Shown here piece by piece: positions 7,411 to 39,258 of a stretch of DNA of 64,000 bases (position 1 is its first letter; each line of letters begins with the position of its first letter). Below the pieces are notes generated by a model. The model did no database searches. It worked only from the letters and a program-made list of their open reading frames with translations, and had not been told where the DNA came from. The stretch spans positions 1 to 64,000 of the forward strand of contig JAKAGV010000020.1 of the NCBI GenBank assembly GCA_021815405.1, read 5' to 3'. This stretch comes from Bacteroidota bacterium (lineage in GTDB: Bacteria; Bacteroidota; Ignavibacteria; Ignavibacteriales; Ignavibacteriaceae). Position numbers and translations under genes: made by a program.

Positions 7411-7422
7411 ATTCATCTATTA

Positions 7423-9593: not shown

Positions 9594-9600
9594 AATTATT

Positions 9601-10254: not shown

Positions 10255-10325
10255 TATACTCCCTTATATTTTATCTTTTAACAAGGCAATAATGCCAAAA
10301 AAGAAAATATAATGCAAACCGATGA

Positions 10326-10355: not shown

Positions 10356-10520
10356 ATGCATTCATACATTTGATATTTGATCCTAATTTTTTCAGTTCAT
10401 TATCTACCTGGCGATTGATTTCAAACATGCCATGACGTAGCCGTGATAGTTTTGTTACAATTACTTTTTATATTGAATATGAACAATCACCAAGCTTTTT
10501 GCACGATGAAAGGTAATAAA

Positions 10521-11627
10521 ATGAACATTAACATTTTAGCCGTACTTTTTAGCGGCTTATTAATCGCAGGATGTACAAACATGAGCTCAAAAGAAATTTC
10601 CTCAGAAAATTCCGGTTCATTAATCCCAGCCGGAGCTAAGCTTGATACCGCAACTTTTGCGGGCGGCTGTTTTTGGTGCATGGATGCGCCATTCGAAAAG
10701 CTTCAAGGCGTAAAGGATGTTATTTCCGGATACGCAGGCGGACATGTAAAAGATCCAACTTACGAAGAAGTCTGCACCGGCTCTACGGGCGCTGTTGAAG
10801 CAGTACAGGTTATTTACGACCCCCAAATAATCAGCTATGCTGAGCTAATAGAAGTTTATTGGAGACAGTTTGATCCGACTGATTCGGGCGGTTCATTTTA
10901 TGATAGAGGCTCGCAATACAAGTCGGCAATCTTTTATACTAATGAGATGGAGAAAAAAGTTGCCGAAACTTCTAAAGAAAGATTAAACTTGTCCGGTATT
11001 TTTAAGAAGCCGATAGTAACGAAGATAGTACCGTTTACGAATTTCTATCGTGCTGAAGAATATCATCAGCATTTTTATAAGAAGAATCCGGCAAGATATT
11101 ATGCTTACCGTGAGGCTTCAGGCAGAGACAGCTTTATTATGGCAGTCTGGGGTGACGACAGTGTAAATAGTTATATAAAGAATGCGGAGAAAGAAATGAA
11201 ACAACCAGAGAATCAATTAAAGAAGAAATTGACGCCAATTCAATATGCAGTAACGCAGCAGTGCGAAACCGAACCGGCTTTTAACAATAAATACTGGAAC
11301 AACCACCGTGAAGGAATTTATGTGGACGTTGTTTCTGGAGAGCCGTTGTTTAGTTCTACAGATAAATATGATTCCGGTAGCGGCTGGCCCAGCTTTACAA
11401 AACCGATCGATCCCAGATTTATTGTAAAGGATAAAGATACCTCATTCGGAATGAACCGCATTGAAGTACGAAGCAAAATCGGCGATTCGCATCTCGGTCA
11501 TCTTTTTGATGATGGACCCGCGCCGACTAATCTACGATATTGCATAAACTCTGCATCGCTCCGGTTCATACCAAAAGATGATATGGCAAAGGAAGGATAC
11601 GGAGAATATCTCTATCTCTTCAAATAA
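10521..11627 (+). CDS. msrAB: Methionine sulfoxide reductase MsrA-MsrB fusion lipoprotein
   Basis: A 368-residue fusion when started at 10521. That start has AAAGG seven bases upstream and gives a proper lipoprotein signal with lipobox IAGC (Cys18); earlier in-frame codons would bury the signal. MsrA occupies about 40-200, with catalytic GGCFWC (Cys50, plus Cys53). MsrB occupies about 225-368, with SGSGWPSF and the catalytic [11 protein letters not shown] (Cys341). The zinc CxxC pair of many MsrB proteins is absent ([13 protein letters not shown]). An extra Cys lies in VTQQCETEP. Anchored outside the cytoplasm, it probably repairs both epimers of methionine sulfoxide in envelope proteins. Confidence 0.93.
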
Positions 11628-11640
11628 AAAAACGTATGAG

Positions 11641-11702
11641 TGCATGGCTGCATGAATTAAACATGCATCCTTGCAATTCCATGCTTTCATGCAATCCTGC
11701 TT
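11641..11702. repeat. CATGC-rich short repeats after msrAB
   Basis: The sequence contains GCATG or CATGC several times, including TCCATGCTTTCATGCAA, which nearly repeats TCATGCTTTCATGCAT before msrAB at 10346-10361. It can fold into imperfect hairpins. It may be a terminator or a degenerate repeat; no T-run follows directly. Confidence 0.4.
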
Positions 11703-11861
11703 TTTAAATTACCTTTCTATGAAATTGTATCTGATATTCGTCTGGCAGTCAATCACAGTTGCTGAAATTCTTTTTTCTTAAAATTGCACTCTTTGAATGG
11801 ATTCTTGTTTAGATTTTGTGGATTTTTGTAGTGTCAATATTTACATGGAGATAACATTCTA

Positions 11862-13109
11862 ATGGCAATAATCAAACCATTCAAAGCATTAAGACCATCA
11901 AAAGAAACAGCAGCAAAAGTTGCAAGCGTTCCATACGATGTAGTAAATACAGAAGAAGCAAAGCATGCTGCTGAAGGGAACTCACTGAGCTTTTTAAGAG
12001 TTACACGATCCGAAATAGAACTTGATCCGAATATCGACCCTTATTCTCCAAAAGTCTATCAAAAGGCTAAAGAAAATTTACAAAGATTAATTTCTCAAGC
12101 TCCTCTTAAGATCGAAGAAAATGAGTATTTTTATCTTTACAAATTGGAGATGGATGGCAGAACTCAAACCGGTATTGCCGCAACATTTTCGGTGGATGAC
12201 TACGACAACGATGTAATCTTGAAGCATGAGAAGACAAGGAAAGTCAAGGAAGACGACAGAACAAACCACATTGTAACTACAGGTGCACAAACCGGTCCGG
12301 TCTTCTTAACTTATAAACCAATTAAAGCAGTTGATAAAATTGTAGATGAAACTATGAGGGATAATCCCCCAGTTTATGATTTTATCTCAACTGATGGAAT
12401 AAAGCATACAATATGGATATTGCCGGATAAGTTCAATCAATCAATTATCGATGAGATTGGAAGGGTAAAAAATTTGTATATTGCTGATGGTCATCATCGT
12501 GCAGCAAGTGCAGGTCGCGCAAGAAAAACAAAACAAGAATCTAATCCCAATCATACAGGCAAAGAAGAGTATAATTACTTCCTTGCCGTACTTTTTCCAG
12601 CAGATCAATTAAAGATTTTACCGTATAACCGGATAATTCTAGATTTAAACGGAAAATCGAATAATGAATTTCTGGATGAGATAAGTGAAAAATTTCAAAT
12701 TGAAAAATCAAACTTACCTCAGCCTAATAAACAAAAAACATTTGGAATGTATTTGGACGGAACATGGTATATGCTGAAGCCTAGAGATTCAATACTTGCA
12801 AGCAATAGTCTTTCTAAATCCATTGCTGATACACTTGACGTGAGTATTCTTCAAGACTTTTTACTTAATCCGATTTTAGGAATTGATGATCCTAGAACAA
12901 ACAAGCGAATTGATTTTGTCGGTGGAATCAGAGGAGCAAAGGAACTGGAAAAGTTAGTAAATAACGGAAAGGCTGCAGTTGCTTTTTCATTATATCCTGT
13001 TTCCGTAAATGATTTGATGAGTATCTCCGATTCAGGCGAAATAATGCCTCCGAAATCAACTTGGTTTGAGCCGAAGCTGAGAGATGGCTTACTGGTGCAT
13101 TTGATTTAA
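11862..13109 (+). CDS. DUF1015 family protein
   Basis: A 415-residue soluble protein of the DUF1015 family. The family opening is clear (IIKPFKALRPSKETAAKVASVPYDVV), as are the conserved internal YIADGHHRAASA and the C-terminal MPPKSTWFEPKLRDGLLVHLI. The role is not established. DUF1015 genes are often found near serine biosynthesis genes, and here serC follows 570 bp downstream on the same strand, separated only by a decayed toxin-antitoxin pair. Full length, with no sign of damage. Confidence 0.88.
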   Translation: MAIIKPFKALRPSKETAAKVASVPYDVVNTEEAKHAAEGNSLSFLRVTRSEIELDPNIDPYSPKVYQKAKENLQRLISQAPLKIEENEYFYLYKLEMDGRTQTGIAATFSVDDYDNDVILKHEKTRKVKEDDRTNHIVTTGAQTGPVFLTYKPIKAVDKIVDETMRDNPPVYDFISTDGIKHTIWILPDKFNQSIIDEIGRVKNLYIADGHHRAASAGRARKTKQESNPNHTGKEEYNYFLAVLFPADQLKILPYNRIILDLNGKSNNEFLDEISEKFQIEKSNLPQPNKQKTFGMYLDGTWYMLKPRDSILASNSLSKSIADTLDVSILQDFLLNPILGIDDPRTNKRIDFVGGIRGAKELEKLVNNGKAAVAFSLYPVSVNDLMSISDSGEIMPPKSTWFEPKLRDGLLVHLI

Positions 13110-25115: not shown

Positions 25116-25164
25116 GTGCAAAGCATTTGGTGAACGCTATGCACTCAGCCCTTAGCGCTTTGCG
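25116..25164. repeat. GCAAAGC/GCTATGC palindromic repeat overlapping a gene end
   Basis: GTGCAAAGC (25116-25124) pairs with GCTATGCAC (25136-25144) with one mismatch. GCGCTTTGC (25155-25163) adds a further copy and lies inside the last codons of the small-subunit gene. A related word, GGCTTTGCGCTATGCAT, occurs at 50877-50893. It sits between convergent genes and may end transcription from both sides. Confidence 0.5.
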
Positions 25165-25913
25165 GATAAATAATCCAGCAGTGCATGAATGAATGTTAGC
25201 GGATGTGGCGGACAGCCAGGTATAAATAAATCGACTGGAACTTCATCAAAAAATTTCCTATTAATTTGATTTGAGTCTGCAAACATTCCTCCGCTGATTG
25301 CACATGCACCGACAGCGATTACAATCTTTGGCTCACTAATGCTGTCGTAAGCATCTCTTAATGCCGGTGCCATGTTTGAAGAAATCGGACCAGTAATAAC
25401 AACTCCGTCTGCGTGTCTCGGTGAGGCAACAAAATCAATCCCGAACCTTCCCATATCAAAATTAACATTGGATGCGGCATTCAGTTCAAGTTCGCAGCCG
25501 TTGCATCCGCCGGCAGAAACCTGCCGCAGCTTAAGTGAACGCCCGAACAGCTTGTGAATTTCCTTCTTCGCTTCGATTGCTGTATTGTTGAACTCTTCAA
25601 AAGTCTCTGATGAAGCAATTACCAGAGATTCTCGCCTTGAACTTCCAAGTCTATATTGATTTGAAAACTTTATTGTACCGTCTGAGATATTTTCACATTC
25701 TCCGCAGAATATACATTTGCCTAAATCTATTCTTAAAGGATTTATCTCAATTGCGCCGGTTGGGCAAACTTCTTTACAGCCTGCACCTCCGTTCCAGCTT
25801 TTTGTTTCGTCAATAACAGGGAACCCACGAAAGGTTTCCATCACTTCAGCTTTGCAGATATCCGGTATTGCTTGTCTGCCGTGTCTAATCCTTAATTTCA
25901 ATAAATCAAACAT
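25152..25913 (-). CDS. Ehr/group 4 hydrogenase-type small subunit with N-terminal ferredoxin domain
   Basis: A 253-residue iron-sulfur protein related to NuoB/HyfI with a NuoI-like N-terminal part. The C-terminal domain has all four ligands of the proximal N2-type cluster: Cys137 and Cys140 (GGCNGCE), Cys204 (GACAISGG) and Cys234 (PGCPPHP). The ferredoxin part has Cys46 and Cys50 (GCKEVCP) and Cys67, Cys70 and Cys73 (CIFCGEC). This is enough for one [4Fe-4S] cluster (50, 67, 70, 73) rather than the usual two. It is the last gene of the operon, 20 bp after the large subunit. It would carry electrons between an unknown donor and the large subunit. Confidence 0.88.
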   Translation of the reverse strand: MFDLLKLRIRHGRQAIPDICKAEVMETFRGFPVIDETKSWNGGAGCKEVCPTGAIEINPLRIDLGKCIFCGECENISDGTIKFSNQYRLGSSRRESLVIASSETFEEFNNTAIEAKKEIHKLFGRSLKLRQVSAGGCNGCELELNAASNVNFDMGRFGIDFVASPRHADGVVITGPISSNMAPALRDAYDSISEPKIVIAVGACAISGGMFADSNQINRKFFDEVPVDLFIPGCPPHPLTFIHALLDYLSAKR

Positions 25914-25933
25914 TTCAAATCTTAAATTGAATT

Positions 25934-27421
25934 TTACAAATCAAACCCGCTGTAAGAAAGATTAAAGCTCTTATTGCAAAGCGGGAAATCGGAAATGCCG
26001 TTGTTTTTAACTGCCAATGCAACCGCAATCCAGTTGTTGAATGACGGATCTTTAATTTTATATCTTTTCAGTTGCCCGCTTTCATCAGTAATTGCGGTGT
26101 GAACTATTTCGCCGCGCCATCCTTCAGACATCGAAACTACAAATTGATTTGGAGATAAATTATTTAATGGTTTTTTATTTTCACCATCTATCGGAGACTC
26201 AAGCAGTTCTCTAATAATTTTTATAGATTGGATAATTTCGACGTAACGGATATAAGCCCGCGCAAAAACATCTCCGGATTTTAAAGTAAATTTATGAACG
26301 GGAAAAAGAGTAAATCCGTCGTAAGGATGATCTGTACGGACATCAAGCGCAGCTCCGCATGCTCGAGCAGCAGGTCCGACAAGCCCAATATCCTTTGCTG
26401 TTTCAAGAGAAACCACTCCGGTTTTCTCAAATCTTGCTAACACAGATGCTGATGAAAATAAAACTTCTGCAGCCAGTTCAACATCTTCTTCAAGCTTGTT
26501 CAAAGTCTGAGTTAATTTTTCTTTTAGCTCATCATTGATATCGTAATTAACACCGCCAATTGCAATTAATCCGTGTCCAAACCTGCTTCCGCTAATTGCC
26601 ATAGTTGAATTTATTATTTTGGTTCTCATAGCGCCGAATGCAGCGTTGCCGGTAAGATAAGCTACATCTCCTGCTAATGCAGAAAGGTCTCCAAGATGAA
26701 TTCCGATTCGTTCAAGCTCAAGCGCAATTGTTCTTATAATTATTGCACGGCGCGATACATCAATATTGCCGAGCGATTCTATTGCTCTGGCAAAAGTTCC
26801 CGCATGACCGATGACTGTATCTCCTGCAATCGACTCCGAAAGTTTTAAAAGAAACTCCAGTTTGTTTTTATTCTTTAAAAATAATTCTTCTATTCCGCGG
26901 TGCTGAAAACCATGTTCAATTTCAAGATGATGGATTTGTTCGCCATGACAAGAAAATCTGAAATGTCCGGGCTCGATTATACCGGCATGAATAGGTCCTA
27001 CGCCGACTTCATGAACCTCTTCGCCTTCCATCTTAAAAAATTCATATTGATTTTCTTCGCTGGAAATTCCGGCAATACCTTTACGAACCGGTTTAAGCCA
27101 TGGATGACCTTCGGGCTTAATTCCATACTGCTCAAAGAATTCTCTTTCAAAAAGATGAAATGATTTCACTTCCGGTGTAATTGATTCAAAAGAATTTACC
27201 CCGCTGAAAATTGAAGATGCGGTAAACAGCTTTGACTGCTCATCATCTGCAAGAACGACATAAAGAATAACCTCATTGCCAATTTTGTCTCCGAAGAATT
27301 GAACCACCCTGCATCCTTCGGAAATCTTCTCAATAATCTGTCTCTTCAATGTTAAAAATTCCAGGCAGGGAATTTCCTTTTGCGCGGCAGACTGAAGATT
27401 TTTTATTTCATACCAGCTCAA
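25934..27421 (-). CDS. Ehr/group 4 hydrogenase-like large subunit lacking nickel ligands
   Basis: A 495-residue fusion of a NuoC-like domain (1-115, FEREFFEQYGIKPEGHPWL) and a NuoD/HyfG-like domain. The conserved opening HFRFSCHGEQ and GFQHRGIEELF is present (153-180). The N-terminal nickel motif, CGxC in hydrogenases, is replaced by SIAGDTVIGH at about 197-206. The C-terminal CxxC is also absent, the protein ending DFPLCNKSFNLSYSGFDL. So it should not bind a NiFe centre. This fits the energy-converting hydrogenase-related (Ehr) group, whose electron donor and acceptor are unresolved. It lies 13 bp after the HyfF-like gene. Confidence 0.88.
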   Translation of the reverse strand: MSWYEIKNLQSAAQKEIPCLEFLTLKRQIIEKISEGCRVVQFFGDKIGNEVILYVVLADDEQSKLFTASSIFSGVNSFESITPEVKSFHLFEREFFEQYGIKPEGHPWLKPVRKGIAGISSEENQYEFFKMEGEEVHEVGVGPIHAGIIEPGHFRFSCHGEQIHHLEIEHGFQHRGIEELFLKNKNKLEFLLKLSESIAGDTVIGHAGTFARAIESLGNIDVSRRAIIIRTIALELERIGIHLGDLSALAGDVAYLTGNAAFGAMRTKIINSTMAISGSRFGHGLIAIGGVNYDINDELKEKLTQTLNKLEEDVELAAEVLFSSASVLARFEKTGVVSLETAKDIGLVGPAARACGAALDVRTDHPYDGFTLFPVHKFTLKSGDVFARAYIRYVEIIQSIKIIRELLESPIDGENKKPLNNLSPNQFVVSMSEGWRGEIVHTAITDESGQLKRYKIKDPSFNNWIAVALAVKNNGISDFPLCNKSFNLSYSGFDL

Positions 27422-27434
27422 TCAACAACTCCAT

Positions 27435-28865
27435 CTAATTTAGAAAGCTCGCGGCATTCTTCAATAAATTCAAAACTGTTTCGGGAATATTCGTTCCAAT
27501 TGCTATCAGAAGCAGCAGCATTAATACCTGCCCGGTGTATGCAGAAAAGTTTAATCGCTTCGATTCAATTATTTCAGATTTATTTTCACCGAAAGACATT
27601 TTGAAAACAGCATTTCCCATTCCATAAATTATTACAGCAAGTAAAATGAAAAACGGAATTGACAGCCAACCGAGACCTGCCGCAAAAAAAGCTTTTGCAA
27701 TTAAGAACTTTGCAATGAAAGCCGGAAACGGAGGTATGCCTGAAATCGACAATAAAGAAATAATCCATATCCAACCTGTAATCGAATCTCTTTTTAACAG
27801 GCTGTGTACACTTTCAATCTTTTTAGTTTTAAAATGATGAAGGATGTTTCCGGAAGTAAGGAACAAAGATGTTTTGGAAAATGAATGAGCTGCCAGCAAA
27901 ATCATCGCGGCAAAAATTCCCGGCTTACCGAGCGCAATGCCGATGAAAAGTATTCCCATATTTTCAATTGAAGAATACGCAAGCATCCTTTTATAATTTT
28001 TTATCTGAAGCATAAACACCGCACTGATAAGCAGCGAAAGAAAGCCGGTTACGAGCAGCAGAAAATTTGAGAATTCCTCGCGGTGCGCATCAATCATTAT
28101 CTCTTGCACACGAATGAGCCCTAAAAATGCTGTGTTGAGCAAGGTTCCTGAAAGCATTGCGGAAACAGGCGAAGGAGCTTCGGAATGGGCATCGGGCAGC
28201 CAGGCATGAATAGGGGCAACTCCTACTTTAGTACCGAATCCTACGAGAATAAAAGCAAAGCTTATCTGCAGCCAGAAAGGATTTATCTCCGACGAATGTG
28301 AATACAAATCAGAAAAGAAAAGTGAATTGAATGAACGACTTCCGATTGAGAGAATAATTATTCCGACAAACGCCAGTGTAATTCCAATCGAGCAGATGTA
28401 AATATATTTCCAGGCAGCTTCGAGCGAAGATTTTTTCTTTTCAAAATAAATTAAAAGGGCGCTGGTTAAAGTTGTAGCTTCAACAAAAACCCACATAAGT
28501 GCAAGATGAGTTGAAAGCAGCACGCCTGTCATCGCAGCAACAAAAAGAAACATTGTTGCAGTATAAACAGCTTCCTGCTGCACTGAGCAATTGTGCTCGT
28601 CAAAATAAAAAATGCTGTAAATTGAAGAGGCTAAAAAAACGACCGACATTACAGCAAGAAACAAAATTCCAATGGGATCGAACTTGAAAAATATATTCAG
28701 CCATCCCGGAAGAATTATCCAGTTCAATCCGGACCAGGCTGAGATAGTTACCGCAATATAAACCATTGGAAGCAGTATTAAAGAAGTTCTTGTAATAATC
28801 CTGCTTTTTGAAAGAAGAACGATCGCACCAAGAAGTACCGGCAAGAATAATAAAATGAAAATCAT
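27435..28865 (-). CDS. HyfF-like antiporter-type membrane subunit
   Basis: A 476-residue polytopic protein of the NuoL/M/N-Mrp family (about 14 helices). The conserved proton-path residues are present: Glu129 in WVFVEATTL and Lys213 in GFGTKVGVAPIHAWLPDAHSEAPSPVSAMLSG, the family hallmark. In the Hyf/Ehr complex it is the second antiporter-like subunit and is expected to move H+ or Na+. It overlaps nothing and starts one base after the HyfE-like stop, indicating tight cotranscription. Confidence 0.88.
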   Translation of the reverse strand: MIFILLFLPVLLGAIVLLSKSRIITRTSLILLPMVYIAVTISAWSGLNWIILPGWLNIFFKFDPIGILFLAVMSVVFLASSIYSIFYFDEHNCSVQQEAVYTATMFLFVAAMTGVLLSTHLALMWVFVEATTLTSALLIYFEKKKSSLEAAWKYIYICSIGITLAFVGIIILSIGSRSFNSLFFSDLYSHSSEINPFWLQISFAFILVGFGTKVGVAPIHAWLPDAHSEAPSPVSAMLSGTLLNTAFLGLIRVQEIMIDAHREEFSNFLLLVTGFLSLLISAVFMLQIKNYKRMLAYSSIENMGILFIGIALGKPGIFAAMILLAAHSFSKTSLFLTSGNILHHFKTKKIESVHSLLKRDSITGWIWIISLLSISGIPPFPAFIAKFLIAKAFFAAGLGWLSIPFFILLAVIIYGMGNAVFKMSFGENKSEIIESKRLNFSAYTGQVLMLLLLIAIGTNIPETVLNLLKNAASFLN

Positions 28866-28866
28866 T

Positions 28867-29502
28867 TTAATCTTTCAACTCCGTAAGAATATCGATATGA
28901 TTTCCGTCGAACATCTCCTGAATCTTGTTGAAGAAAATTACGAAGAGATAAATACCGACAAATAAATCAAGCAGAACGCCGAGGTTCACAAGCATCGGCA
29001 TTTCGTTAGCGACTGACAGCGACAAAAGGAATATCCCGTTCTCAAGAATCATATAACATAAAATGTGGGTGATAATTCTTTTTCGATTTACAATTAAGAA
29101 CAAACTGGCAATTATCAAAACTATTGAGACACCGAAGTAAAGCGGCTTTACGCCGGCTCCAACTTTAGCAGACCAGAACGCCGCAACAAAGCCGAGGATA
29201 AAAATTCCGCTTGCGATCAACATCGAGTAGAACTGCGAAATATAAGGCTCAACCTCTCTTCCTATTTCATTTTTCCGGATTACGCGCAAAAGGAAGAGAG
29301 GAATAATAATTGCCTTAACCAACAAAGTTTCAATCGCAAGAAATGCAATGTTCAGCCAGTTTATTTCTTTGAGATCAAAAATAACAAGGAAGAAAAGAGC
29401 CAGCCCTTGAAATGCTAAGGTTTTAACATAAGATTCAATTCTGCTTGCGGCAAAAATGTAAAGTATGCTTGTGCCGAGAAGAATAATTAAAATATTGCTC
29501 AT
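28867..29502 (-). CDS. HyfE-like membrane subunit
   Basis: A 211-residue protein with about seven hydrophobic helices. Its second half (about 110-200) resembles NuoK, with a buried acidic residue in ITHILCYMILENGIFLLSLSV. Its length matches HyfE and the corresponding Ehr subunit. It connects the antiporter-like subunits to the hydrophilic arm in related complexes. Its ATG follows directly after the stop of the HyfC-like gene with no spacer, and one base separates it from the next gene. Confidence 0.85.
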   Translation of the reverse strand: MSNILIILLGTSILYIFAASRIESYVKTLAFQGLALFFLVIFDLKEINWLNIAFLAIETLLVKAIIIPLFLLRVIRKNEIGREVEPYISQFYSMLIASGIFILGFVAAFWSAKVGAGVKPLYFGVSIVLIIASLFLIVNRKRIITHILCYMILENGIFLLSLSVANEMPMLVNLGVLLDLFVGIYLFVIFFNKIQEMFDGNHIDILTELKD

Positions 29503-30420
29503 CTACATTCTTCCTCGCAAATAGAAAACGACAACGGCAAAAGCAATAAGTGAAAGTGCCGTCATAAGAAAAATGAATTGCGGAACATGCGACATCCTTG
29601 CCCGCGCAATCAGCGACTCAATCAAACCGATTAGTACTGCCGACAACATTATAATTCCTATCAGCAAAACTGTCGCAATTACGGGTTGAATATTTCCGGG
29701 GATTAAAAGATTAGCCGCTAAAACCGATAGTAAAACCATCTTCATACTGGCAGAATAAAATATGAAAGCAAAGTCCGGACCCGAATTATCCAGCACCATC
29801 ACTTCATGGATCATAGTAAGTTCAAGATGAGTATTTGGATCGTCAACGGGAACGCGCGAGCCTTCAGTTAATATCATAATAAATAAAGCTGCTGTAAAAA
29901 GAATTTCAATTAAAACGGAGTAACCGGCGCTTGAATTCAACAAATGAAAAATTGAAGCGAAGGAGGTCTGTCCGGTAAGCATAGCAAGAGTTCCGATCAA
30001 AATAAAAAATGCAGGCTCAACAATCGTTGAAAATGTTACTTCTCTGCTTGCACCCATTCCTTCGAAGCTGCTGCCTGTATCGAGAGCCGCAAGCACAGTT
30101 AAGAATTTTGAAAGTCCGAGGACATAAGCGAACAAAACAAAATCGCCTTCAAAGCTGAATGCTGAACCAAACGATGGAATCGGTATTAAAAGGAAAGCAA
30201 AGATTACAGCGGCGATGTTAAACGTCGGCGCTATTTGAAAAACAAATGAAGTTGTTTTACTAATTACTTCTCCCTTCTTTAACAGTCTGATGAAATCATA
30301 CAACGGCTGAAGCAGCGGAGAGCCTTTTCTTCCAGCCCAGAGTGCTTTCACCCGGTTAATTATTCCGATGAATAAAAACGGCGCAACAAGTAATAAACAA
30401 ATTTGAATTACCGGCAGCAT
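29503..30420 (-). CDS. HyfC/NuoH-like membrane subunit
   Basis: A 305-residue protein of the NuoH/HyfC family with about eight helices. The family signatures are LLQPLYDFIRLLKKG near 38-52 and the loop EGSRVPVDDPNTHLELTMIHEVMVLD near 178-203, which in complex I borders the quinone site and contacts the large subunit. It anchors the hydrophilic arm to the membrane. The ATG lies immediately after the TAG of the HyfB-like gene, so the two are translationally linked. Confidence 0.9.
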   Translation of the reverse strand: MLPVIQICLLLVAPFLFIGIINRVKALWAGRKGSPLLQPLYDFIRLLKKGEVISKTTSFVFQIAPTFNIAAVIFAFLLIPIPSFGSAFSFEGDFVLFAYVLGLSKFLTVLAALDTGSSFEGMGASREVTFSTIVEPAFFILIGTLAMLTGQTSFASIFHLLNSSAGYSVLIEILFTAALFIMILTEGSRVPVDDPNTHLELTMIHEVMVLDNSGPDFAFIFYSASMKMVLLSVLAANLLIPGNIQPVIATVLLIGIIMLSAVLIGLIESLIARARMSHVPQFIFLMTALSLIAFAVVVFYLRGRM

Positions 30421-32406
30421 CTACATTACTCCGATAACGTAAATAAGAATTAAGACGAGAAAGATGAGACCATAAAGAATGTATTGCTGCATCCTTCCGC
30501 TTTGAATCCATACAAATAAGTTTAAGAAAGAACGAATATATTTTAGCAGAGGCTGAATGAAAATTCTTTCTAACAAATCATGCTGGGAAGTTTTTAACTT
30601 TGCTTCTGCAGGAAAGATTTCCTTTTCAGTTTCAACAATTGTCTTCTGAGGAACAACAGCCGCAACGAGCTCTAAAAAAGGGAGTGAAAAAGAACTGCCA
30701 GTATATTGGACACGGCTGTTAGCCGTTTGATAACCGCAGTCCCAAGTTTTAAAAATCCTAACGTGCTTCCTTCGAAGAAGTAAATACCTGACTATAAAAA
30801 AGAATAAAAGTATAGCAACAAAGATTGAGATTGCTTTTGCTAATGAAGTGTAAACTGAAATAATCGAACTAAGTTCCGACAAATAATTTGTCTGTGAAAA
30901 CTGATTAACTGCTCCTGAAATCAAATGTATAATTACAGCAGGGAAAAATCCTACAAAGAAAATTACCGTTAAACAAATTATCATGGGGAACAAAAGCATT
31001 GGTGAAGCTTCCGATGGCTGATGATGGAACTTCGAACGCGATGTTCCAAGAAAAGTAATTCCGAAAAGTTTTGTAAAGCCAAGTACCGCCATAACTCCGA
31101 CTAATGCCAAACCGGAAAATCCAACAATCATCAAAATATTAAATGAAGCGCTGTCGAATGAAAAGCTTTTTGCAATACCAAGGTAAATTGCAAATTCGCT
31201 TATGAATCCGCTAAGAATAGGCAGCCCGCTTATAGCCATTGCCCCGATTAAAAATACCGCTGCAGTAAGCGGCATGTACTTTATCAGTCCACCGAGATTT
31301 TCCAAATTTCTTGTTCCGGTTTTTTGATAGACAATTCCGGCACCGTAAAATAGAATGCTCTTAAAAGTAAAATGATTTAAAGTATGAAGCAGCGCTCCTA
31401 AAAATCCAAGCCAGGTAATCAGCGGAAGGTTATAGGAAAGCCCAAGCATACCAAGCCCGATGCCCATGCCTATTATACCGATGTTTTCTATACTTGAATA
31501 TGCGAGAAGCTTTTTAATATCTTTCTGTGAAATTCCGTTTAGGATTCCGGTAATTGCAGTAACAAGTGAAATAATAAATACTCCGTATGCAAGGTGTATC
31601 TCTGGAATTCCGCATAACAAAATAATCCTAAGAATTCCGTAGATGCCTGTCTTAATCATTATGCCTGACATTATCGCAGAAACTCCGGTTGGGGCTGCAG
31701 GATGAGCGCGCGGAAGCCATGTATGGAAAGGAACAAATCCAGCCTTAGTTCCAAATCCTATAAAAAATAGAATAAACAAAATTATTGAAATGCTGCCTTG
31801 TGCACTTAATATATTTTTGAACGAATTGAAATCGTAACTTCCGGTAACGCTGCTTATCCATGCAAATGCTGCAATCAAAAATGAAGCTCCAATCTGCATC
31901 GCGATTAAATAATAGACTCCAGCTTTTCTTACTTCCTCCTTATCGCTTTCAAAGATGACGAGGAAAAAAGATGAGGTAGACATCAGCTCCCACACAATTA
32001 AAAATAAAATTGAATTCTGGACAACGACAACAAGCAGCATTGAAGAGATTAAAAGTCCGAAGAAAAAATAAAAAGAAGACAGTGAATATTTTTTTTCATC
32101 ATAGTGTTTCAAATATTCCATCGAATAAATTGAAGCAAGCAGTGAGCCGGCTGAAATGATGATTACAAAAAAAACGGCGAGCGGATCTAGCCTAATCGCA
32201 GAGCTGCCGATCGGATCAGAAAAATACAAAATCTTCTCAAGATTCCCTCCGCCTAACAAAACAGAAACGGCTGAAGGAAGTATCATGAACTGAGCGGCAA
32301 TGCCGAAGAGTAAAAATAAATATCCCTTCGCTTTACCTCTTACAAAAATTGCAGAGGTTCCGCCTGCAAAAAAAAGAATGCAGCCTAAAAGAAATTCATC
32401 AAACAA
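30421..32406 (-). CDS. HyfB-like antiporter-type membrane subunit
   Basis: A 661-residue polytopic NuoL/Mrp-type protein. Key residues are Glu140 in LIVWELMSTSS and Lys221 in FGTKAGFVPFHTWLPRAHPAAPTGVSAIMSG, plus a second lysine in LNHFTFKSILFYGAG. The long C-terminal extension (from about 540) contains RKHVRIFKTWDCGYQ, as in HyfB. The reading frame begins with TTG at 32406, six bases after the regulator stop, and no ATG is close; the overlapping GGAAAGG is in the preceding gene. It should translocate ions as the first membrane subunit of the complex. Confidence 0.87.
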   Translation of the reverse strand: MFDEFLLGCILFFAGGTSAIFVRGKAKGYLFLLFGIAAQFMILPSAVSVLLGGGNLEKILYFSDPIGSSAIRLDPLAVFFVIIISAGSLLASIYSMEYLKHYDEKKYSLSSFYFFFGLLISSMLLVVVVQNSILFLIVWELMSTSSFFLVIFESDKEEVRKAGVYYLIAMQIGASFLIAAFAWISSVTGSYDFNSFKNILSAQGSISIILFILFFIGFGTKAGFVPFHTWLPRAHPAAPTGVSAIMSGIMIKTGIYGILRIILLCGIPEIHLAYGVFIISLVTAITGILNGISQKDIKKLLAYSSIENIGIIGMGIGLGMLGLSYNLPLITWLGFLGALLHTLNHFTFKSILFYGAGIVYQKTGTRNLENLGGLIKYMPLTAAVFLIGAMAISGLPILSGFISEFAIYLGIAKSFSFDSASFNILMIVGFSGLALVGVMAVLGFTKLFGITFLGTSRSKFHHQPSEASPMLLFPMIICLTVIFFVGFFPAVIIHLISGAVNQFSQTNYLSELSSIISVYTSLAKAISIFVAILLFFFIVRYLLLRRKHVRIFKTWDCGYQTANSRVQYTGSSFSLPFLELVAAVVPQKTIVETEKEIFPAEAKLKTSQHDLLERIFIQPLLKYIRSFLNLFVWIQSGRMQQYILYGLIFLVLILIYVIGVM

Positions 32407-32412
32407 CTTTTG

Positions 32413-33087
32413 CTAATTACCTTTCCACTCAATTTCTTTTTCTTCAACAAATCCTAAAATATTTTCTTTAGATTCTCTTCTTGTTAACATTTCAATAAAC
32501 TTGTCCATCCGGCATAAGTAAGAAATTTTAGAGAGAGTTTCGAGATGCTTCTTTGGACTATTGGACAAAACAATAAATAAAGTGTGTACCAGTTCCCCGT
32601 CCAGCGCTTTAAAGTCGGTTGGATTTTTCAGATAACAAATTGAAACGCTTGAATCGCCTGCCTCGGTTATAATGGGATTACGGGGATGCGGAATAGCAAT
32701 TCCTTTTCCAATCGCAGTAGTCATCAATTCTTCTCGGCTTAATAGAGCTGAAAGAATTTCAACCTTTGAAATGTTAGCCGGAGTAGAAATCATTTCAATT
32801 GCATACTTTAAAATATCTGCAACCGAATTGCCGGGAATGTTTTGATAAACTCCGCCTGCGTTCAGAAGCGCATAAAAGCTTGATAATTTGGCTTCCGAAG
32901 TTAGGTTTAGAACATTCGGGGTAAGTTCAATTTTGCTGCTTAGAATCCACTCATTTATTTCGGAACGGTTGAATCTATATTGATGATTTATCCTGTAACA
33001 TGGAATCTTCTTATCTTTAATCCATCTGTAAACCGTTTTTTCCGAAACATTAAGAAGCTCTACAATATCCTTAATCTTTAAATCCAC
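32413..33087 (-). CDS. Helix-turn-helix/PTS EIIA fusion regulator
   Basis: A 224-residue protein when started at GTG 33087; an in-frame TTG at 33141 would add 18 residues and no ATG is available. Residues 2-52 form an excisionase-type helix-turn-helix (KIKDIVELLNVSEKTVYRWI, then RINHQYRFNRSEINEWI). Residues about 75-220 form a PTS EIIA domain of the fructose/PtsN type, with the phosphorylatable His134 in IAIPHPRNP. No EIIB or EIIC is nearby, so the EIIA domain is probably sensory. The gene ends six bases before the first subunit of the Ehr-type complex, so it likely regulates that operon, perhaps in response to the PEP:pyruvate ratio or nitrogen-PTS state. This last point is inference. Confidence 0.85.
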   Translation of the reverse strand: MDLKIKDIVELLNVSEKTVYRWIKDKKIPCYRINHQYRFNRSEINEWILSSKIELTPNVLNLTSEAKLSSFYALLNAGGVYQNIPGNSVADILKYAIEMISTPANISKVEILSALLSREELMTTAIGKGIAIPHPRNPIITEAGDSSVSICYLKNPTDFKALDGELVHTLFIVLSNSPKKHLETLSKISYLCRMDKFIEMLTRRESKENILGFVEEKEIEWKGN

Positions 33088-33180
33088 AAAGTCCGAAAAA
33101 ATTTTGGCGGGAAATGTAAATCTTTTTCCGGCAATGTGCAAAGATTTCCAAGAAAAAGTTTACTTGTCCCAAAATGTCCT

Positions 33181-36100
33181 TTAACGGCTTAAATATTCCA
33201 ATACTGCTTTCATAACTTCATCTCTTACTTTCTGACCAAGAATCGTTTCAAAAGGGAAACCAAATGCAATTACATTGTAACTGCCGGAATAAGCTGTTGC
33301 CGCAGGAAAACTATTTTCTGAATATCGAAGAATTATTTTTCCGCCATTCACTCCTTGAATAGCATCCGGTGCTGTCACCGCATAAAGGTTATCATTCAAT
33401 TCTGTATTGAATTTCAAAGTAAAAGATTTAGGCAAAAATGAATCATTGATTGATTTAACTTCCCCGTTTGCAGATGCATGATCTGCATCCAGTTTATATT
33501 TTAAAATTTGTGTTGCAAAGCTTTTATCTATACTGTCAGGTTTTGCTTGATTAAATAAATCACTTGCGATATAAGATCCGGAAATAAAAATATTTCCACC
33601 GGAATTGCAGTAGGCAGTTATCTGCTTTTGTAATTTAGCAGGAAATGTTTTAAAGCGCATTCCTCGCTTTAAATCTTGTGAAGTTCTTTCCCAAGGTGTG
33701 GATTTTTGGGCTCCTAAAATCAAATCAATATATTTATATGGTGTAAGATTAACGAGACTATCTTCCACGGCTTGGGCACTTACAGACATAAATGAATGAC
33801 CGCATTCTTTAATTGCCTCACCATGAATATAGGGGTAGTTAAAAGTATTTCCTGCAATAACATCTGTTTCATAATTTGCGTGGCTTGCGCCCCATCCTGG
33901 CTCATCATTTGAAATCCAAGCTGAGGTAGAATCAAAATTGTACTGCGAACCAGTATAGCTTAAATCGTAATGATCAGGAACTCCGGGATCAATCGCATTT
34001 ACGAAACCGGTAAACTTCGAGCTTTCTACAGCTGCGGGTCCCGCAACCCGGTAGAATCCGTTTATTATTAAGACCGGCTTTTTATCATTATCCATTCTGC
34101 AGACAGAAAGAATTTCTGACGGAAAGCTTTCACCACCGTTATTTACTGCCGTAACCTTGAAACTGTATATTAAGCCTGGCTTTGCATTCCTGAATTCAAA
34201 ATAAGGATGAGAAGTAACAACTCCATTATCAAAGCCACCGCTGTTGATTCTTGTATAAACAATATATTTATCCGGTGTAGCAGTTGGCTCAAGCGAATCG
34301 GGTGTCGGTTTCCATGTTAACAGTACATTTCCATCCTGCTCAAGAATTGAAGTAAAACATTTCACCGGGAGCGGCTCAACAATGTATTTGAAATTATCTT
34401 GAACCGAGAGAAAACGCAGAATGCCCTTGTAAATGGCTCTTGCGACTGTAAATCTAAATTCAGGATCGTGAGCAAATTTCATATCAAGATAATTTTGATG
34501 CGAGAGAATCTCCAGCAGCATTGAAGGTATATTCGGGCGTACTGCTTCGCTGTAATCCGAATCCTCAAGCGCCCTGCGGTTCCAGGTAGAATCATATTCG
34601 GATCGAACGTCATTCACAATTTGTGATTGAACCAGATCCGCAAAATCTCTGTTTGCCATCCGAGACATTCCTCCGGGAAAATCATTTTTATTTTTCTCAT
34701 CCAAAGTACTATAAATGGCAAGTGTGCCGACGGTTGTATCGCTGTGTGTTATCCCTGCATCTGTATGAATTGCAAGTGAAGCATCAATTGGAATTCCAAG
34801 TCCTTTTGCTGCTCTATCTCCATTAGGTCCATCAGGTGCACCATTCAAATAATTAGCATATTCCGGTCGGCTCTTATAATCATCGTTATAATCATTCTTA
34901 CTTTTATTTAAGTCATAGACCAGAGTATCCGGCATACCGGCATACTGAAGATAATATCTTGCCGCTTCGAATATTTTTGGTCTGCCGCTGGTTCTGCCGC
35001 CTCTTTCAATAATTCCCATACCACCGCCAAAGCGAACAGCATCAGCAGAAATTATTTTACCGCTACTCTTGCTTTGATTAGTCAGAACAACTTTATCTTC
35101 ATCCGGATTGTATCCCTTTTCAAACTTAAATTCACCGAGATATATCCATGTGTTTCCGCCAATTTGCTGATTAACTTTGAATTTAGTCTGGATACCATCG
35201 TGATAAACAGTGTAATGAGCATCCGAAGCGTTCCCGGCTGATGCATGATACGAAATATAAACAGCATAAGATCCTGTTTCCGGAATCTCCGGTATCCAGC
35301 TAACTGATGCAGTTGAATCTAAGCTTGATTCTATAAACCGGCTTGTACCTTTTTTAAATGGATTGTAATCTGTGGGATAAGGAGGATTACCAACAGCAAA
35401 GCCGGGGTTTTTGCTTGTTGTCCATTTATCATTATTGCTAGTATATTTTTCAATATAATATTTTGATTTTATATCAGAAGGAGAATCATTATCTACCACA
35501 ACAGAATTACTCTGCATGTCTCTTTCACGGGGATCAAAAACATTTGCGCCGGCATTTTGAAGCATCGGGATCAAGTAGGGGACTACAAAAGATAAAGTCA
35601 ATTTATCTTCAACAGATTGGAACAACCTTGGACGCTGCCATTCCCAGCGGTTTTCCTCATTGTTGTAATACCATCCATGGCTTGGCCATACAACAATATT
35701 TCTATTAAACAATCCGTTTGATGGTACAAATTTCTTGCTGACATTTTGAACCACCGGTGCCGGTCTTTTTTCAATTTTTGATGGAAGGCGTTTTAAATCG
35801 TAATCGTTTTTATTGTCTCTATAATAATTCGGAACGAAATATTGAATCGGATGATTCTGTGTCTCAAGTGTATATTTATAATCCTCAAATCCGCTGCCGA
35901 AATATTTTTTTACTTCCGAATATATTTCCTTAACACTATTCTCTCTGAAAGGACGAAAGCCGAAATTCCTGTTGAACTTTATGACGATGGTTTTTGTATT
36001 TGTGTTTATTAGAAAATCATCTATTTTAGATCCATCCGGGATTTTGAATTTAAACATTCGTTTCGCAAAGTCGATTCTAAATTCATTTGCTTTTGCATCA

Positions 36101-36210
36101 AACGTCGGGCTGTATTTTTTGGAAACTACGTTTACTGTTTCGGGCGTAGAACTACAGCCAAAATAAATAATCGAAAGTATAAAAATAGATAAGAGTAAAG
36201 GGCGTTTCAT
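33181..36210 (-). CDS. Amidase lipoprotein with golvesin-like insertion and Fn3 domain
   Basis: A 1009-residue lipoprotein (lipobox YFGC, Cys19). An N-acetylmuramoyl-L-alanine-amidase-like domain is split: its first half (about 170-230) gives VWPSHGW (His178) and SVEDKL (Glu201), and its second half (about 400-600) gives LAIHTDAG (His483) and SMLLEILSH (Glu568), the usual zinc and catalytic set. Between them, 295-398 is a golvesin-like domain (SWIPEIPETGSYAVYISY, ending DAVRFGG). A fibronectin type III domain (about 612-706) and a C-terminal domain with a YCNSGGNIFISGSYI segment, probably amidotransferase-like, follow. Likely acts on peptidoglycan or another envelope polymer. Such proteins are often annotated as xanthan lyase. 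Confidence 0.82.
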   Translation of the reverse strand: MKRPLLLSIFILSIIYFGCSSTPETVNVVSKKYSPTFDAKANEFRIDFAKRMFKFKIPDGSKIDDFLINTNTKTIVIKFNRNFGFRPFRENSVKEIYSEVKKYFGSGFEDYKYTLETQNHPIQYFVPNYYRDNKNDYDLKRLPSKIEKRPAPVVQNVSKKFVPSNGLFNRNIVVWPSHGWYYNNEENRWEWQRPRLFQSVEDKLTLSFVVPYLIPMLQNAGANVFDPRERDMQSNSVVVDNDSPSDIKSKYYIEKYTSNNDKWTTSKNPGFAVGNPPYPTDYNPFKKGTSRFIESSLDSTASVSWIPEIPETGSYAVYISYHASAGNASDAHYTVYHDGIQTKFKVNQQIGGNTWIYLGEFKFEKGYNPDEDKVVLTNQSKSSGKIISADAVRFGGGMGIIERGGRTSGRPKIFEAARYYLQYAGMPDTLVYDLNKSKNDYNDDYKSRPEYANYLNGAPDGPNGDRAAKGLGIPIDASLAIHTDAGITHSDTTVGTLAIYSTLDEKNKNDFPGGMSRMANRDFADLVQSQIVNDVRSEYDSTWNRRALEDSDYSEAVRPNIPSMLLEILSHQNYLDMKFAHDPEFRFTVARAIYKGILRFLSVQDNFKYIVEPLPVKCFTSILEQDGNVLLTWKPTPDSLEPTATPDKYIVYTRINSGGFDNGVVTSHPYFEFRNAKPGLIYSFKVTAVNNGGESFPSEILSVCRMDNDKKPVLIINGFYRVAGPAAVESSKFTGFVNAIDPGVPDHYDLSYTGSQYNFDSTSAWISNDEPGWGASHANYETDVIAGNTFNYPYIHGEAIKECGHSFMSVSAQAVEDSLVNLTPYKYIDLILGAQKSTPWERTSQDLKRGMRFKTFPAKLQKQITAYCNSGGNIFISGSYIASDLFNQAKPDSIDKSFATQILKYKLDADHASANGEVKSINDSFLPKSFTLKFNTELNDNLYAVTAPDAIQGVNGGKIILRYSENSFPAATAYSGSYNVIAFGFPFETILGQKVRDEVMKAVLEYLSR

Positions 36211-36480: not shown

Positions 36481-39258
36481 ATGAGCACCAGACCCACAAA
36501 TTTACTTGAAGATCAGCAGCAGGATACCCCGCTAAAAAAAGATATAAAGGAACTAGGTATTATCCTGGGAAATGTCCTAAAAGAACAAGCCGGAGAAAAC
36601 ATTTATGAAATTGTAGAAAAGCTGCGGGCACTTACAAAACAGCTTCGTAATCAGTTTAGCGAAAAGACTAGATCCGATATCATTTCCGTTATCAACTCAT
36701 TGAGTGTTGATATGGCTTACAAAGTAGTAAAAGCCTTTTCAATTTATTTTATTCTTGTTAATGCTGCGGATGAAGTCCATAGGATACGAATTCAAAGGAA
36801 CAATGAACTAAAAGATCGTCCATATCAGACAGGCTCTCTTGCCAATGCGTTGGTTTGTCTAAAGGAAATGAAAATCAAATCCAACTTAATAGAAGACTCA
36901 CTGAAGAAAATTGAGATTATTCCGGTATTTACAGCTCATCCAACTGAGGCTACTCGGCAAACCATCTTAAGAAAAATTTTACGTATTAGCAAGTTGATGC
37001 TTAAAAGAGAAACCGCAATTAACACAAAAGAAGAAATTGAAAACATAAACCTAAAACTACAAACAGAAATTACTCTACTCTGGCAATCAAATGAAATCAG
37101 GTTTCACAAAGTTACCGTAAAGGACGAAATTCAGAACGGTCTTTTTTTCTTTAAGGAAGTTCTATATGATTTAATTCCGGAATTTTATTCAACCTTTAAC
37201 AAGCATCTCAAATCCATTTATGAAATACAGCACCAATCTCCGTCGCTAATAAAATTCGGCTCCTGGATGGGCGGCGATAGAGATGGACATCCATTTGTAA
37301 CCCCGGAAATATCAAAAGAAACTCTTGTAAACAATAAACGCCAAATCATTGGCTTGTATCAAGGTGATCTTGATACTCTTTACTCGCAAATTAGTTCTTC
37401 CAATAATATTATTTCTGTCAGCAAGGAACTGGAAAAATCTGTTGCCCTTGAAAGCAGCCTCTTTAACCTGGAAATAAAAGATACAATGCTTCGGGATCCT
37501 ACTGAAATTTATCGATCAAAGATTTTGCTCATCTCACTCAAGCTCGAAGAAACCAAACAGAACAGCGCTCACAGATACCGTAACATGTATGAATTTCTTG
37601 ATGACTTGTATCTGATCTATAATAGTTTGTCAGCCAATAAAGGGAAAATTATCGGCGATGTAAACCTGCTTCCCTTTATCTACAAAGTAGAGACATTTGG
37701 ATTTCGCTTTGCAGCTCTGGATATAAGGCAAAATGCATTTCAGCTAAGAGATGCAATAAATGAAATTTTTAATTTTACCGAAGTGTGCCTGAACTTTAAT
37801 TCAATTGATGAAAAAAGTAAAATTAAAATTTTAACTGATGAGATCTTAAGAGCCAGACCATTAAAAAATAATTTTACAAAGTTTAGTGATTCTTCACTAA
37901 GGATTATCGAAGAGTTCGGAGTAATTAAATGGGGCAAAGAAAATGTTGCCCCGAATGCCTGCAACGATTATATAATAAGTAACTGCGCTTCGGTCAGCGA
38001 TATACTTACTGCCGTACTGCTGGCAAAAGAAGCAGGATTAATTACAGTCGCTCAAGGGAAAATACTCAACACGCAAATTGATATTCTTCCGCTATTCGAA
38101 ACTATCTTTGATCTTCGTGAATCTGATTCAGTAATGAAAGAACTTTTCGAAAATAAAGCTTACTCGCAGCATTTGAAAATTAGAAACAATATCCAGAAGA
38201 TTATGATCGGATATTCTGACAGCAACAAAGACGGAGGTATAATTACTTCAAACTTTGAATTGTACAAAGCTCAAACTAATTTGAAAAAGCTCTGCGATGA
38301 AAAAGGAATTGAGCTTACTCTTTTCCATGGAAGAGGCGGCAGCACATCCCGCGGAGGCGGTCCGGCTAATTCTTCAATCCTTGCTCAGCCAAAAGGTACT
38401 ATCGAAGGGAAAATAAAGATAACTGAACAAGGAGAAATGATCTCTTCTAAATACCTAATTCCGGAGATAGCAAAAAGGAGCCTGGAACTTATGGCTTCCG
38501 CAGTGCTCATTACAACTGTAAACTCAAATATTCAGAAAGCTGACGACAAGTTCGAACAATACAAAAATATTTTCGAAAACATTTCATCTAACGCATTTGC
38601 CGCATATAGAGCACTTATAAATCATCCGGACTTTTTCGAATACTTCCGGACAGTAACGCCTATCGATATTATCGAGCATATTGAAATAGGCTCTCGTCCC
38701 TCATCCAGAAAGAAAAGCAAAGACATTCGTAATCTGAGAGCTATTCCATGGGTATTTGCCTGGACTCAGAATAGACAGACTATTTCCGGCTGGTATGGCT
38801 TCGGATCTGCTGTTGTGAAAAGCATTGAAAACAACCAAGCTACCTGGGATGAAATGAGAAAGATGTATTCCGAGTGGGAATTTTTCCAGGTTCTCGTCTC
38901 CAACCTCGAAATGGTGCTCGTAAAAACCGACATGATAATTGGAGAAGAATATCTTTCACTGCTTCCAAGGAAAAGCCGGACTTATAAAATCTTCGACCTA
39001 ATAAAAAATGAATATGAGCTTTCACGCAGTGCAATATTAAAAATTACCTTAGAAGAAAATCTACTTGACCATGACAAATCTTTGCAGAAATCTCTTTTCC
39101 TGCGAAATCCATATATAGATCCAATCAGTTTTATTCAAATCAAGTTTATTAAAAAATTTCGACAGAAGAATCTGCCTAAAGCAGAAAAGGAAAAATTACT
39201 TTCACTTCTGCGGTTAACTGTTAATGGAATAGCAGCGGGAGTTAGAAATACAGGATAA
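36481..39258 (+). CDS. ppc: Phosphoenolpyruvate carboxylase
   Basis: A 925-residue bacterial-type PEPC. Signatures, in order, are VFTAHPTEATRQ (catalytic His153), SWMGGDRDGHPFVT, MIGYSDSNKDGGI, the mobile loop FHGRGGSTSRGGGP, and the C-terminus VNGIAAGVRNTG, which is the conserved effector-binding end. It carboxylates PEP with bicarbonate to oxaloacetate, an anaplerotic step. Full length with nothing missing. It stands alone on the plus strand, divergent from the amidase lipoprotein. Confidence 0.96.
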   Translation: MSTRPTNLLEDQQQDTPLKKDIKELGIILGNVLKEQAGENIYEIVEKLRALTKQLRNQFSEKTRSDIISVINSLSVDMAYKVVKAFSIYFILVNAADEVHRIRIQRNNELKDRPYQTGSLANALVCLKEMKIKSNLIEDSLKKIEIIPVFTAHPTEATRQTILRKILRISKLMLKRETAINTKEEIENINLKLQTEITLLWQSNEIRFHKVTVKDEIQNGLFFFKEVLYDLIPEFYSTFNKHLKSIYEIQHQSPSLIKFGSWMGGDRDGHPFVTPEISKETLVNNKRQIIGLYQGDLDTLYSQISSSNNIISVSKELEKSVALESSLFNLEIKDTMLRDPTEIYRSKILLISLKLEETKQNSAHRYRNMYEFLDDLYLIYNSLSANKGKIIGDVNLLPFIYKVETFGFRFAALDIRQNAFQLRDAINEIFNFTEVCLNFNSIDEKSKIKILTDEILRARPLKNNFTKFSDSSLRIIEEFGVIKWGKENVAPNACNDYIISNCASVSDILTAVLLAKEAGLITVAQGKILNTQIDILPLFETIFDLRESDSVMKELFENKAYSQHLKIRNNIQKIMIGYSDSNKDGGIITSNFELYKAQTNLKKLCDEKGIELTLFHGRGGSTSRGGGPANSSILAQPKGTIEGKIKITEQGEMISSKYLIPEIAKRSLELMASAVLITTVNSNIQKADDKFEQYKNIFENISSNAFAAYRALINHPDFFEYFRTVTPIDIIEHIEIGSRPSSRKKSKDIRNLRAIPWVFAWTQNRQTISGWYGFGSAVVKSIENNQATWDEMRKMYSEWEFFQVLVSNLEMVLVKTDMIIGEEYLSLLPRKSRTYKIFDLIKNEYELSRSAILKITLEENLLDHDKSLQKSLFLRNPYIDPISFIQIKFIKKFRQKNLPKAEKEKLLSLLRLTVNGIAAGVRNTG

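Follow-up and report, generated by a model that had tools for sequence, protein, structure and literature searches.

An Ehr complex lacking the nickel ligands of hydrogenases occurs with its own HTH-EIIA regulator across phyla, in part with an operator-like repeat

What would power, and what would switch on, a hydrogenase-like membrane complex that has no place for nickel? This question is raised by a 64-kb stretch of DNA from a member of the Ignavibacteriaceae (hereafter the window, analysed over its whole length), part of a 4.97-Mb genome that is 99.98% complete. Open reading frame (ORF) calling places at 25152–33087 of the window, on the minus strand, a unit of seven genes, comprising a regulator and six subunits of an energy-converting hydrogenase-related (Ehr) complex. 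Ehr complexes are described in passages of two earlier papers as group 4 hydrogenase-like, with Hyf-type membrane subunits and no Ni ligands (PMC4378227, PMC6349859). A preliminary description of the locus, made from the sequence alone, filed the six subunits as Ehr; this filing held, but it was incomplete, leaving out a fused ferredoxin domain that has lost one cluster, a regulator that joins a helix-turn-helix (HTH) to an enzyme IIA (EIIA) domain of the phosphotransferase system (PTS), and an operator-like repeat. We show here that the regulator and the six subunits form a unit found together across phyla, part of which has the conserved operator-like repeat.

The large subunit (25934–27421, minus strand) is a fusion of 30-kDa and 49-kDa proteins of the complex I type without Ni ligands. 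Aligned to E. coli HycE with HMMER, its residues A199-G-D-T202 fall on CGIC of the RVCGIC motif and S489-Y-S-G492 on CYSC of PCYSC, bearing out the earlier observation that CGxC is replaced (within SIAGDTVIGH) and that the final CxxC is missing. The protein thus has neither the RxCGxC nor the C-terminal CxxC of a group 4 [NiFe] hydrogenase. A missed reading that restores the cysteines, which the preliminary description had allowed for, did not emerge: the frame is open, no reading restores them, and in an alignment of 113 Ehr-type rows, 6 being duplicates, none keeps both cysteines of either motif. Across these rows the CGxC position reads [ACSTV]-G-D-[STA], and the C-terminal S..G is present in 113 of 113. 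The large subunit stops 3 residues past the last motif, and therefore has no tail for a maturation protease. A search for HypD (PF01924), the only hyp gene product searched for, found no match in the genome, with 4 of 14 control genomes positive, including E. coli. With the ligands gone and no HypD found, a [NiFe] site should be beyond what this genome can make. The family PF00374 was not among the Pfam matches of the window large subunit, and a profile search of the genome also gave no match; the large subunit of a paralogous operon in this genome (L054, discussed below), which has no CxxC, narrowly passed in a protein-level Pfam scan (27.9 bits versus a cut-off of 25.8), so we do not claim that PF00374 is absent from the genome. 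The predicted fold of the window protein (predicted local distance difference test, pLDDT, 91) is closest to HycE of formate hydrogenlyase (FHL; Z 42.0, root-mean-square deviation 2.5 over 481 residues), followed by complex I 49-kDa subunits at Z about 38.

These features bear on the proposal, made for Geobacter Ehr, that the complex is part of a formate–hydrogen system. In its favor, passages of PMC7894505 report Ehr subunits to be more abundant on formate in G. sulfurreducens. However, a domain scan found no formate dehydrogenase among the seven genes of the unit (the neighbor genes of the relatives were not annotated), and the lack of Ni ligands, with no HypD found, indicates that there is no H2 chemistry at this site. 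We consider a formate–hydrogen role highly improbable.

To place the complex, we compared it with three sets of relatives. The near set consists of 116 related genomes, 37 of which have a large subunit 44–100% identical to that of the window. The wide set holds the best 80 loci from a scan of GTDB contigs (Bacteroidota, Spirochaetota, Melainabacteria/Gastranaerophilales, Planctomycetota, Lentisphaerota, Verrucomicrobiota, Acidobacteriota, Myxococcota, Thermodesulfobacteriota and others), and its phylum spread is not a census. The phylum set comprises 395 genomes, 17 of them with a large-subunit match at E ≤ 1e-60. The ORFs of the relatives' loci were taken as stop-to-stop segments, the ORF caller having lost genes in G+C-rich loci. 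In a large-subunit tree of 132 rows, built by a quick method with long branches flagged (L056, L100, L104, L108, L136, L137 and L141 were left out as duplicates, although L104 is not one), 109 Ehr-type rows, the window and 108 others, fell on one side of a branch with a Shimodaira–Hasegawa-like approximate likelihood ratio (SH-aLRT) support of 76, and 107 of them on one side of a branch with support of 99. Outside this group lay HycE/HyfG, MbhL of P. furiosus, the membrane-bound hydrogenases (Mbh-type) of related genomes, Nuo, and the paralog type of this genome; inside it lay the Geobacteraceae and Pelobacter rows, although no row's record bore the name Ehr. Because the branches between groups are long, we do not trust the deep order of the tree. 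The phylogeny, which the preliminary description had called for, sets the window protein among Ehr-type rows and not inside the true hydrogenases. Together with a large subunit that lacks the Ni cysteines, and with Hyf/Ech-like membrane, antiporter-like and small subunits in one operon, this grouping identifies the window complex, at the level of sequence, as Ehr, a kind already described but with no established substrate.

The comparison also turned up other gene sets. Two distant Ehr-type rows from the same class of bacteria (L150, L151) stand beside the main group with weak support, and in one wide-set locus another, more distant Ehr-like gene set follows immediately on the first (L112:10251–17433). 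Related genomes carry true Mbh-type group 4 hydrogenases that keep all Ni ligands (L156–L160). A further divergent type (L161–L164) has a large subunit with PIVCRICVPEPDPNE and three N2-type cysteines in the small subunit, and adjoins a protein of ~600 aa.

The seventh gene of the unit, 6 bp upstream of the HyfB-like gene, lies at 32413–33087 on the minus strand and encodes the regulator, with the domains HTH_17 and PTS_EIIA_2. Its GTG at 33087 is a likelier start than the TTG at 33141 because relatives begin at the same MDLKIKDI. The EIIA histidine is kept in the motif GIAIPHPR (His152, numbered from the longer reading that starts at 33141), and His152, His199, Gly147 and Pro151 are invariant in 23 aligned regulators. 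The genome has one HPr match and one enzyme I (EI) match, encoded by neighboring genes on contig C14. Two features expected of a PTS-controlled regulator are thus present: an EIIA domain with its active-site histidine, and a genome that also encodes EI and HPr. The next gene upstream of the regulator, likewise on the minus strand, encodes a Golvesin_C / Amidase_3 / fn3 protein (33181–36210), and a 560-aa protein in another locus (L172) resembles the regulator's EIIA domain over part of its length.

The regulator occupies the same position in the loci of 17 of 20 related genomes; among the remaining three, L040 is truncated by its contig, and L051 and L052 belong to a type whose small subunit lacks the iron–sulfur cluster N2. 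Among the 116 relatives we found 32 two-domain copies, at 245–319 bits, and all 32 lie beside Ehr genes. Below these, from 115 bits down, come EIIA domains on their own; they explain why 115 of the 116 genomes have some match. Thirty of the 32 copies share a contig with an Ehr large subunit, lying within a few kb upstream of it; the G082 copy is on another contig, beside that genome's B, C, E and F genes, and the G001 copy precedes a HyfB-like gene whose start is all that fits before the contig ends. Six Ehr genomes of the near set have no regulator: in G007, G010 and G011 the contig cuts the operon, and G034, G054 and G073 are N2-less. In the phylum set there are 13 regulator carriers, all among the 17 Ehr carriers.

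In the wide set the regulator is present in 35 of the 58 loci where its presence could be decided; five of these matches are weak (69–82 bits; L097, L107, L109, L112, L134) and L125 is a cut piece at 45 bits. Over both sets, presence could not be decided for 40 loci (2 near, 38 wide); L100 and L108, repeats of L048 and L050, count among the decidable ones, from which the window is excluded. The regulator sits at the 5' end of the operon, but between B and C in some Verrucomicrobiota and downstream in L095, and by the labels of the loci kept its carriers belong to about ten phyla. The 23 wide-set loci without it are 11 from Gastranaerophilales, 5 N2-less Bacteroidota, and L075, L090, L094, L110, L129, L133 and L135. 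The Gastranaerophilales-type Ehr (L060–L069, L072, L076, L084), with 11 decidable loci that all lack the regulator, keeps the first cysteine of the CGxC position (CGD[ST]) but not the second.

Upstream of the regulator, 76 bp before its GTG, we identified a candidate operator, GGACATTTTGGGACAA, a direct repeat with a 10-bp period (33164–33179, minus strand). The motif GGACAW-N4-GGACAW, whose repeats lie one helical turn apart, occurs upstream of the regulator in the window and in ten relatives of the same type. The window copy is the only exact match in the genome. Matches with one mismatch number 56, versus 45 in a backwards control, and we therefore claim no wider regulon. We then scanned both strands of the 160 bp upstream of each regulator, leaving out L100, L104, L108 and loci with <160 bases. 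The repeat was found with ≤1 mismatch in 24 of 48 regulator upstreams versus 9 of 5122 windows of the same loci, and exactly in 13 of 48 versus 0 of 5122, with 11 of the 24 positive loci being those that defined the motif. As the 5122 control windows are mostly coding, we used the upstreams of other ORFs in the same loci as a second control. Without the 11 defining loci, the repeat occurred with ≤1 mismatch in 13 of 38 regulator upstreams versus 0 of 529 other-ORF upstreams (Fisher 6e-17; the loci are in part related and not independent, which makes the P values for the operator too small). L155, the G082 locus, whose best match has 2 mismatches, is outside the 48 and inside the 38. The 13 non-defining positives include Planctomycetota, Verrucomicrobiota, Myxococcota and Spirochaetota, and in some lineages the site is on the opposite strand and closer to the gene. 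The regulator of Geomonas limicola (L119) has another type of HTH, and the 108 bases available upstream of it contain no GGACA site.

The repeat also tracks the regulator itself. It is present in 0 of 25 operons without a detected regulator (among them L096, where the upstream is too short to exclude one). It accompanies 22 of 27 regulators with [VI]YRW in the recognition part of the HTH versus 1 of 20 without, and, when the eleven defining loci are removed, 11 of 16 versus 1 of 20. From these associations we infer that GGACAW-N4-GGACAW is the operator of this regulator. A promoter and terminator scan gave counts close to those of shuffled sequence, and its result was not used.

Behind the regulator, on the same strand, come the HyfB-like antiporter subunit (30421–32406; TTG start; Proton_antipo_M), the HyfC/NuoH-like membrane subunit (29503–30420; NADHdh), the HyfE-like, NuoK-like membrane subunit (28867–29502; Oxidored_q2 below cut-off, NCBIfam hydrogenase 4 membrane subunit), the HyfF-like antiporter subunit (27435–28865; Proton_antipo_M), the large subunit, and a small subunit in which a ferredoxin domain is fused to a NuoB/HyfI-like domain (25152–25913; Fer4 and Oxidored_q6), with domains assigned by Pfam and NCBIfam. 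All six subunit ORFs are intact, and the gaps between them, from B to the last, are 0, 0, 1, 13 and 20 bp. The coordinates (25152–32406), minus strand, gaps of 0–20 bp and HyfB-C-E-F-G-I-like order given earlier match the ORF calling. Of the earlier inventory the six genes remain; its last subunit is a HyfH-like ferredoxin fused to HyfI, not a plain HyfI, and the regulator had been overlooked. The antiporter residues Glu140/Lys221 in B and Glu129/Lys213 in F are at the positions reported, and we add Lys349/Glu404 in B and Lys331/Lys386 in F. The seven genes include no HyfA, HyfD or HyfJ and, by domain scan, no NADH module; Nuo-type B and D genes lie elsewhere in the genome (L055). The adjoining PEP carboxylase gene (36481–39258, plus strand) was considered as a partner and dropped because the loci of 20 relatives contain no match to it.

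How might such a complex work? In the small subunit, the cluster II ligands C67, C70, C73 and C50 are kept and cluster I is lost, by an assignment of cysteines to the two clusters that we assume from 2[4Fe-4S] ferredoxins. The N2 ligands C137, C140, C204 and C234 are all kept. (Structure matches for the small-subunit model, in the VIA list, cover residues 117–253, and the absence of a ferredoxin from them is uninformative.) N2 ligands are intact in 99 of 113 aligned rows and cluster II in 103 of 106 tree rows, its loss in the other three (L092, L095, L123) requiring a single change; electrons therefore probably move there in most of the Ehr rows sampled. In the large subunit, 65 columns are invariant across 56 diverse rows from many phyla, many of them in loops that by homology line the old pocket: GPxHAGxIEPGHFRF, G200-D201, N483-K484 and L488-S489-Y490. 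The genome has four matches to POR domains, of ferredoxin-linked enzymes, and one strong match to a haem-copper oxidase.

We propose that the Ehr complex is a PTS-controlled cation pump, driven by a low-potential donor and with an organic compound as oxidant in the former [NiFe] pocket, an account that we put forward tentatively as quite possibly right. In this model of an ion-pumping redox complex, ferredoxin, a low-potential one-electron donor reduced by the genome's 2-oxoacid:ferredoxin oxidoreductases, would give electrons to cluster II, from which they would pass to N2. A small organic oxidant, rather than protons or a quinone held in the manner of complex I, would be reduced in the former [NiFe] cavity, and the redox energy would drive cation pumping through the C/E and B/F subunits. 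When phosphoenolpyruvate (PEP) is plentiful, HPr would phosphorylate the regulator, which would switch this one operon through GGACAW-N4-GGACAW; the model leaves the direction of control unspecified.

Several observations weigh against this proposal. Ehr operons without the regulator exist, in 4 of the 17 Ehr genomes of the phylum set (G073, which is N2-less, G128, G201 and G205) and 24 of 76 decidable loci overall; not every Ehr, then, depends on the PTS link. The repeat is missing from half of the regulator upstreams, including all 7 of a second Ignavibacteriales type (L045–L050, L053), and on the window alone two matches with ≤1 mismatch are not unusual (15 of 100 shuffles), so that the case for the operator rests on comparison. 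Of 106 tree rows, 43 have lost cluster I, which takes at least 15 changes of state. N2 has gone from 13 of 105, by at least 3 changes, and the pocket stays conserved. These 13 are a Bacteroidota/Ignavibacteriales clade of ten rows that share the signature D-x-D-N (clade support 91), a single Planctomycetales locus and two Opitutae. The 56 rows that define the invariant columns include 8 of the 10 members of this clade and one Opitutae row. Electron flow to the old active site is therefore no universal need of Ehr machines, and these losses cut against a single mechanism in which N2 passes electrons to the pocket in all Ehr. The Planctomycetales locus (L070) and the Opitutae loci (L097, L099) have lost the N2 ligands and kept both ferredoxin clusters; L070 and L097 carry the regulator, which thus does not need N2. 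In the structure prediction that had been suggested for the former NiFe pocket, the fold came out nearest HycE, but the loops that form the pocket by homology, 144–150 and 490–495, are the only stretches of ≥3 residues with pLDDT <50, so we argue no ligand from structure. Finally, donor, acceptor, electron flow and pumping are all things that we infer.

The N2 losses lead to the main alternative, a redox-silent or redox-gated ion translocator in which a ligand bound in the old pocket moves cations and the clusters are structural or sensory relics. At least three loss events with pocket residues kept favor it, as does the second complex I-like operon of the same genome (L054; G000 contig C3:145000–164000, locus 5000–12319), which encodes NuoH, HyfE-like and HyfF-like proteins, a large subunit of 438 aa, a small subunit of 153 aa and a B-like protein of 627 aa. 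Its small subunit lacks all four N2 cysteines and its large subunit reads ICGNF, with no CxxC; it is apparently a complex I-like machine without redox centres. Its large and small subunits are nevertheless 81–86% identical to two copies in another species (L165, L166), which suggests that selection keeps such machines. On the other side, the window complex has complete sets of four ligands for both N2 and cluster II, and most aligned rows retain N2; we regard a ligand-gated translocator as unlikely here. A broader form of this idea, that Ehr and its kin are complex I-like ion machines repeatedly uncoupled from electron transfer, keeping the ligand pocket and the ion channels, with ligand-driven or ligand-gated ion movement as their core work, and that in regulator-bearing operons the PEP/pyruvate state acts as the switch by way of a private PTS-EIIA regulator and a cross-phylum GGACA operator, seems to us distinctly unlikely, if conceivable.

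The electron acceptor allows two further readings. As a ferredoxin:menaquinone oxidoreductase, the complex would bind the head group of the quinone in its large subunit, beside N2, as complex I does; the resemblance to the 49-kDa fold and the intact N2 ligands fit this, and the haem-copper oxidase and Nuo-type genes imply a quinone pool. However, the columns of the quinone head-group ligands, which we take to be His38 and Tyr87 of T. thermophilus Nqo4, hold Ile149 and Gly200 in the window protein, both invariant over the 56 rows, and a machine of this kind would be hard to square with the repeated loss of N2. We think this reading improbable, though not negligible. Alternatively, N2 itself could be catalytic, as in a sulfane sulfur reductase like MBS, which we take to have no Ni site. 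PMC7684303 describes MBS as an S0-reducing relative in which iron–sulfur clusters catalyse. Against this, N2 is dispensable in at least three lineages, and no MBS sequence is in our tree; the reading appears very unlikely. Finally, a 2026 Geobacter paper, in the passage concerned, calls Ehr non-functional (PMC13194489). That the window complex is a decaying, non-functional relic is scarcely credible given its invariant columns, its co-occurring regulator and operator and its six intact ORFs.

The complex shares its Hyf-type membrane subunits and its lack of Ni ligands with published Ehr (Geobacter ehr, Sulfobacillus, Margulisbacteria, as far as the passages describe them). It differs in the fusion of the ferredoxin domain to the small subunit, with one cluster lost, and in the regulator and operator, neither of these two being mentioned in the passages of PMC4378227, PMC6349859 and PMC7894505; passages of the Melioribacter genome paper (PMC3534657) do not name Ehr. 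E. coli FHL (HycE/G, PDB 7z0s) supplies the closest solved fold, and E. coli hydrogenase 4 (hyfA-J, hyfR) the gene order B-C-E-F-G-H-I minus hyfD, but the window unit lacks the Ni ligands, HyfA, HyfD and HyfJ of these systems and has an HTH-EIIA regulator in place of HyfR. With complex I (Nuo/Nqo) it shares the N2 ligands, the 49-kDa protein, NuoH and the antiporter subunits, whereas it has no NADH module and the Nqo4 quinone ligands are replaced. MBS/Mbx of Pyrococcus belongs to the same superfamily (PDB 6u8y matched) but relies on iron–sulfur catalysis, whereas N2 is dispensable in part of the Ehr family. The regulator has an EIIA domain with a phosphorylatable histidine, like EIIA-Ntr and fructose EIIA, but here the domain is joined to an HTH of the excisionase type and goes with a single complex I-like operon. 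Mycobacterium has a hyc-like operon, a Hyc-like cluster without Ni ligands, which is a lead only. While the complex itself is already known, its link to a dedicated HTH-EIIA regulator and a cross-phylum operator-like site was not found in searches of an open-access library, which omits most subscription papers; nor did we meet the repeated loss of N2 in print, although no search was aimed at it.

Ehr is widespread and, in the passages of PMC4378227, PMC6349859 and PMC7894505, without known function. A dedicated PTS regulator with an operator-like site offers a way to learn under which conditions the cell calls for this machine, and an inducer of Ehr could be sought without knowledge of the reaction that the enzyme catalyses. 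N2 is the final relay ahead of the active site in both hydrogenases and complex I, and its repeated loss has consequences for ideas about what drives pumps of the complex I type.

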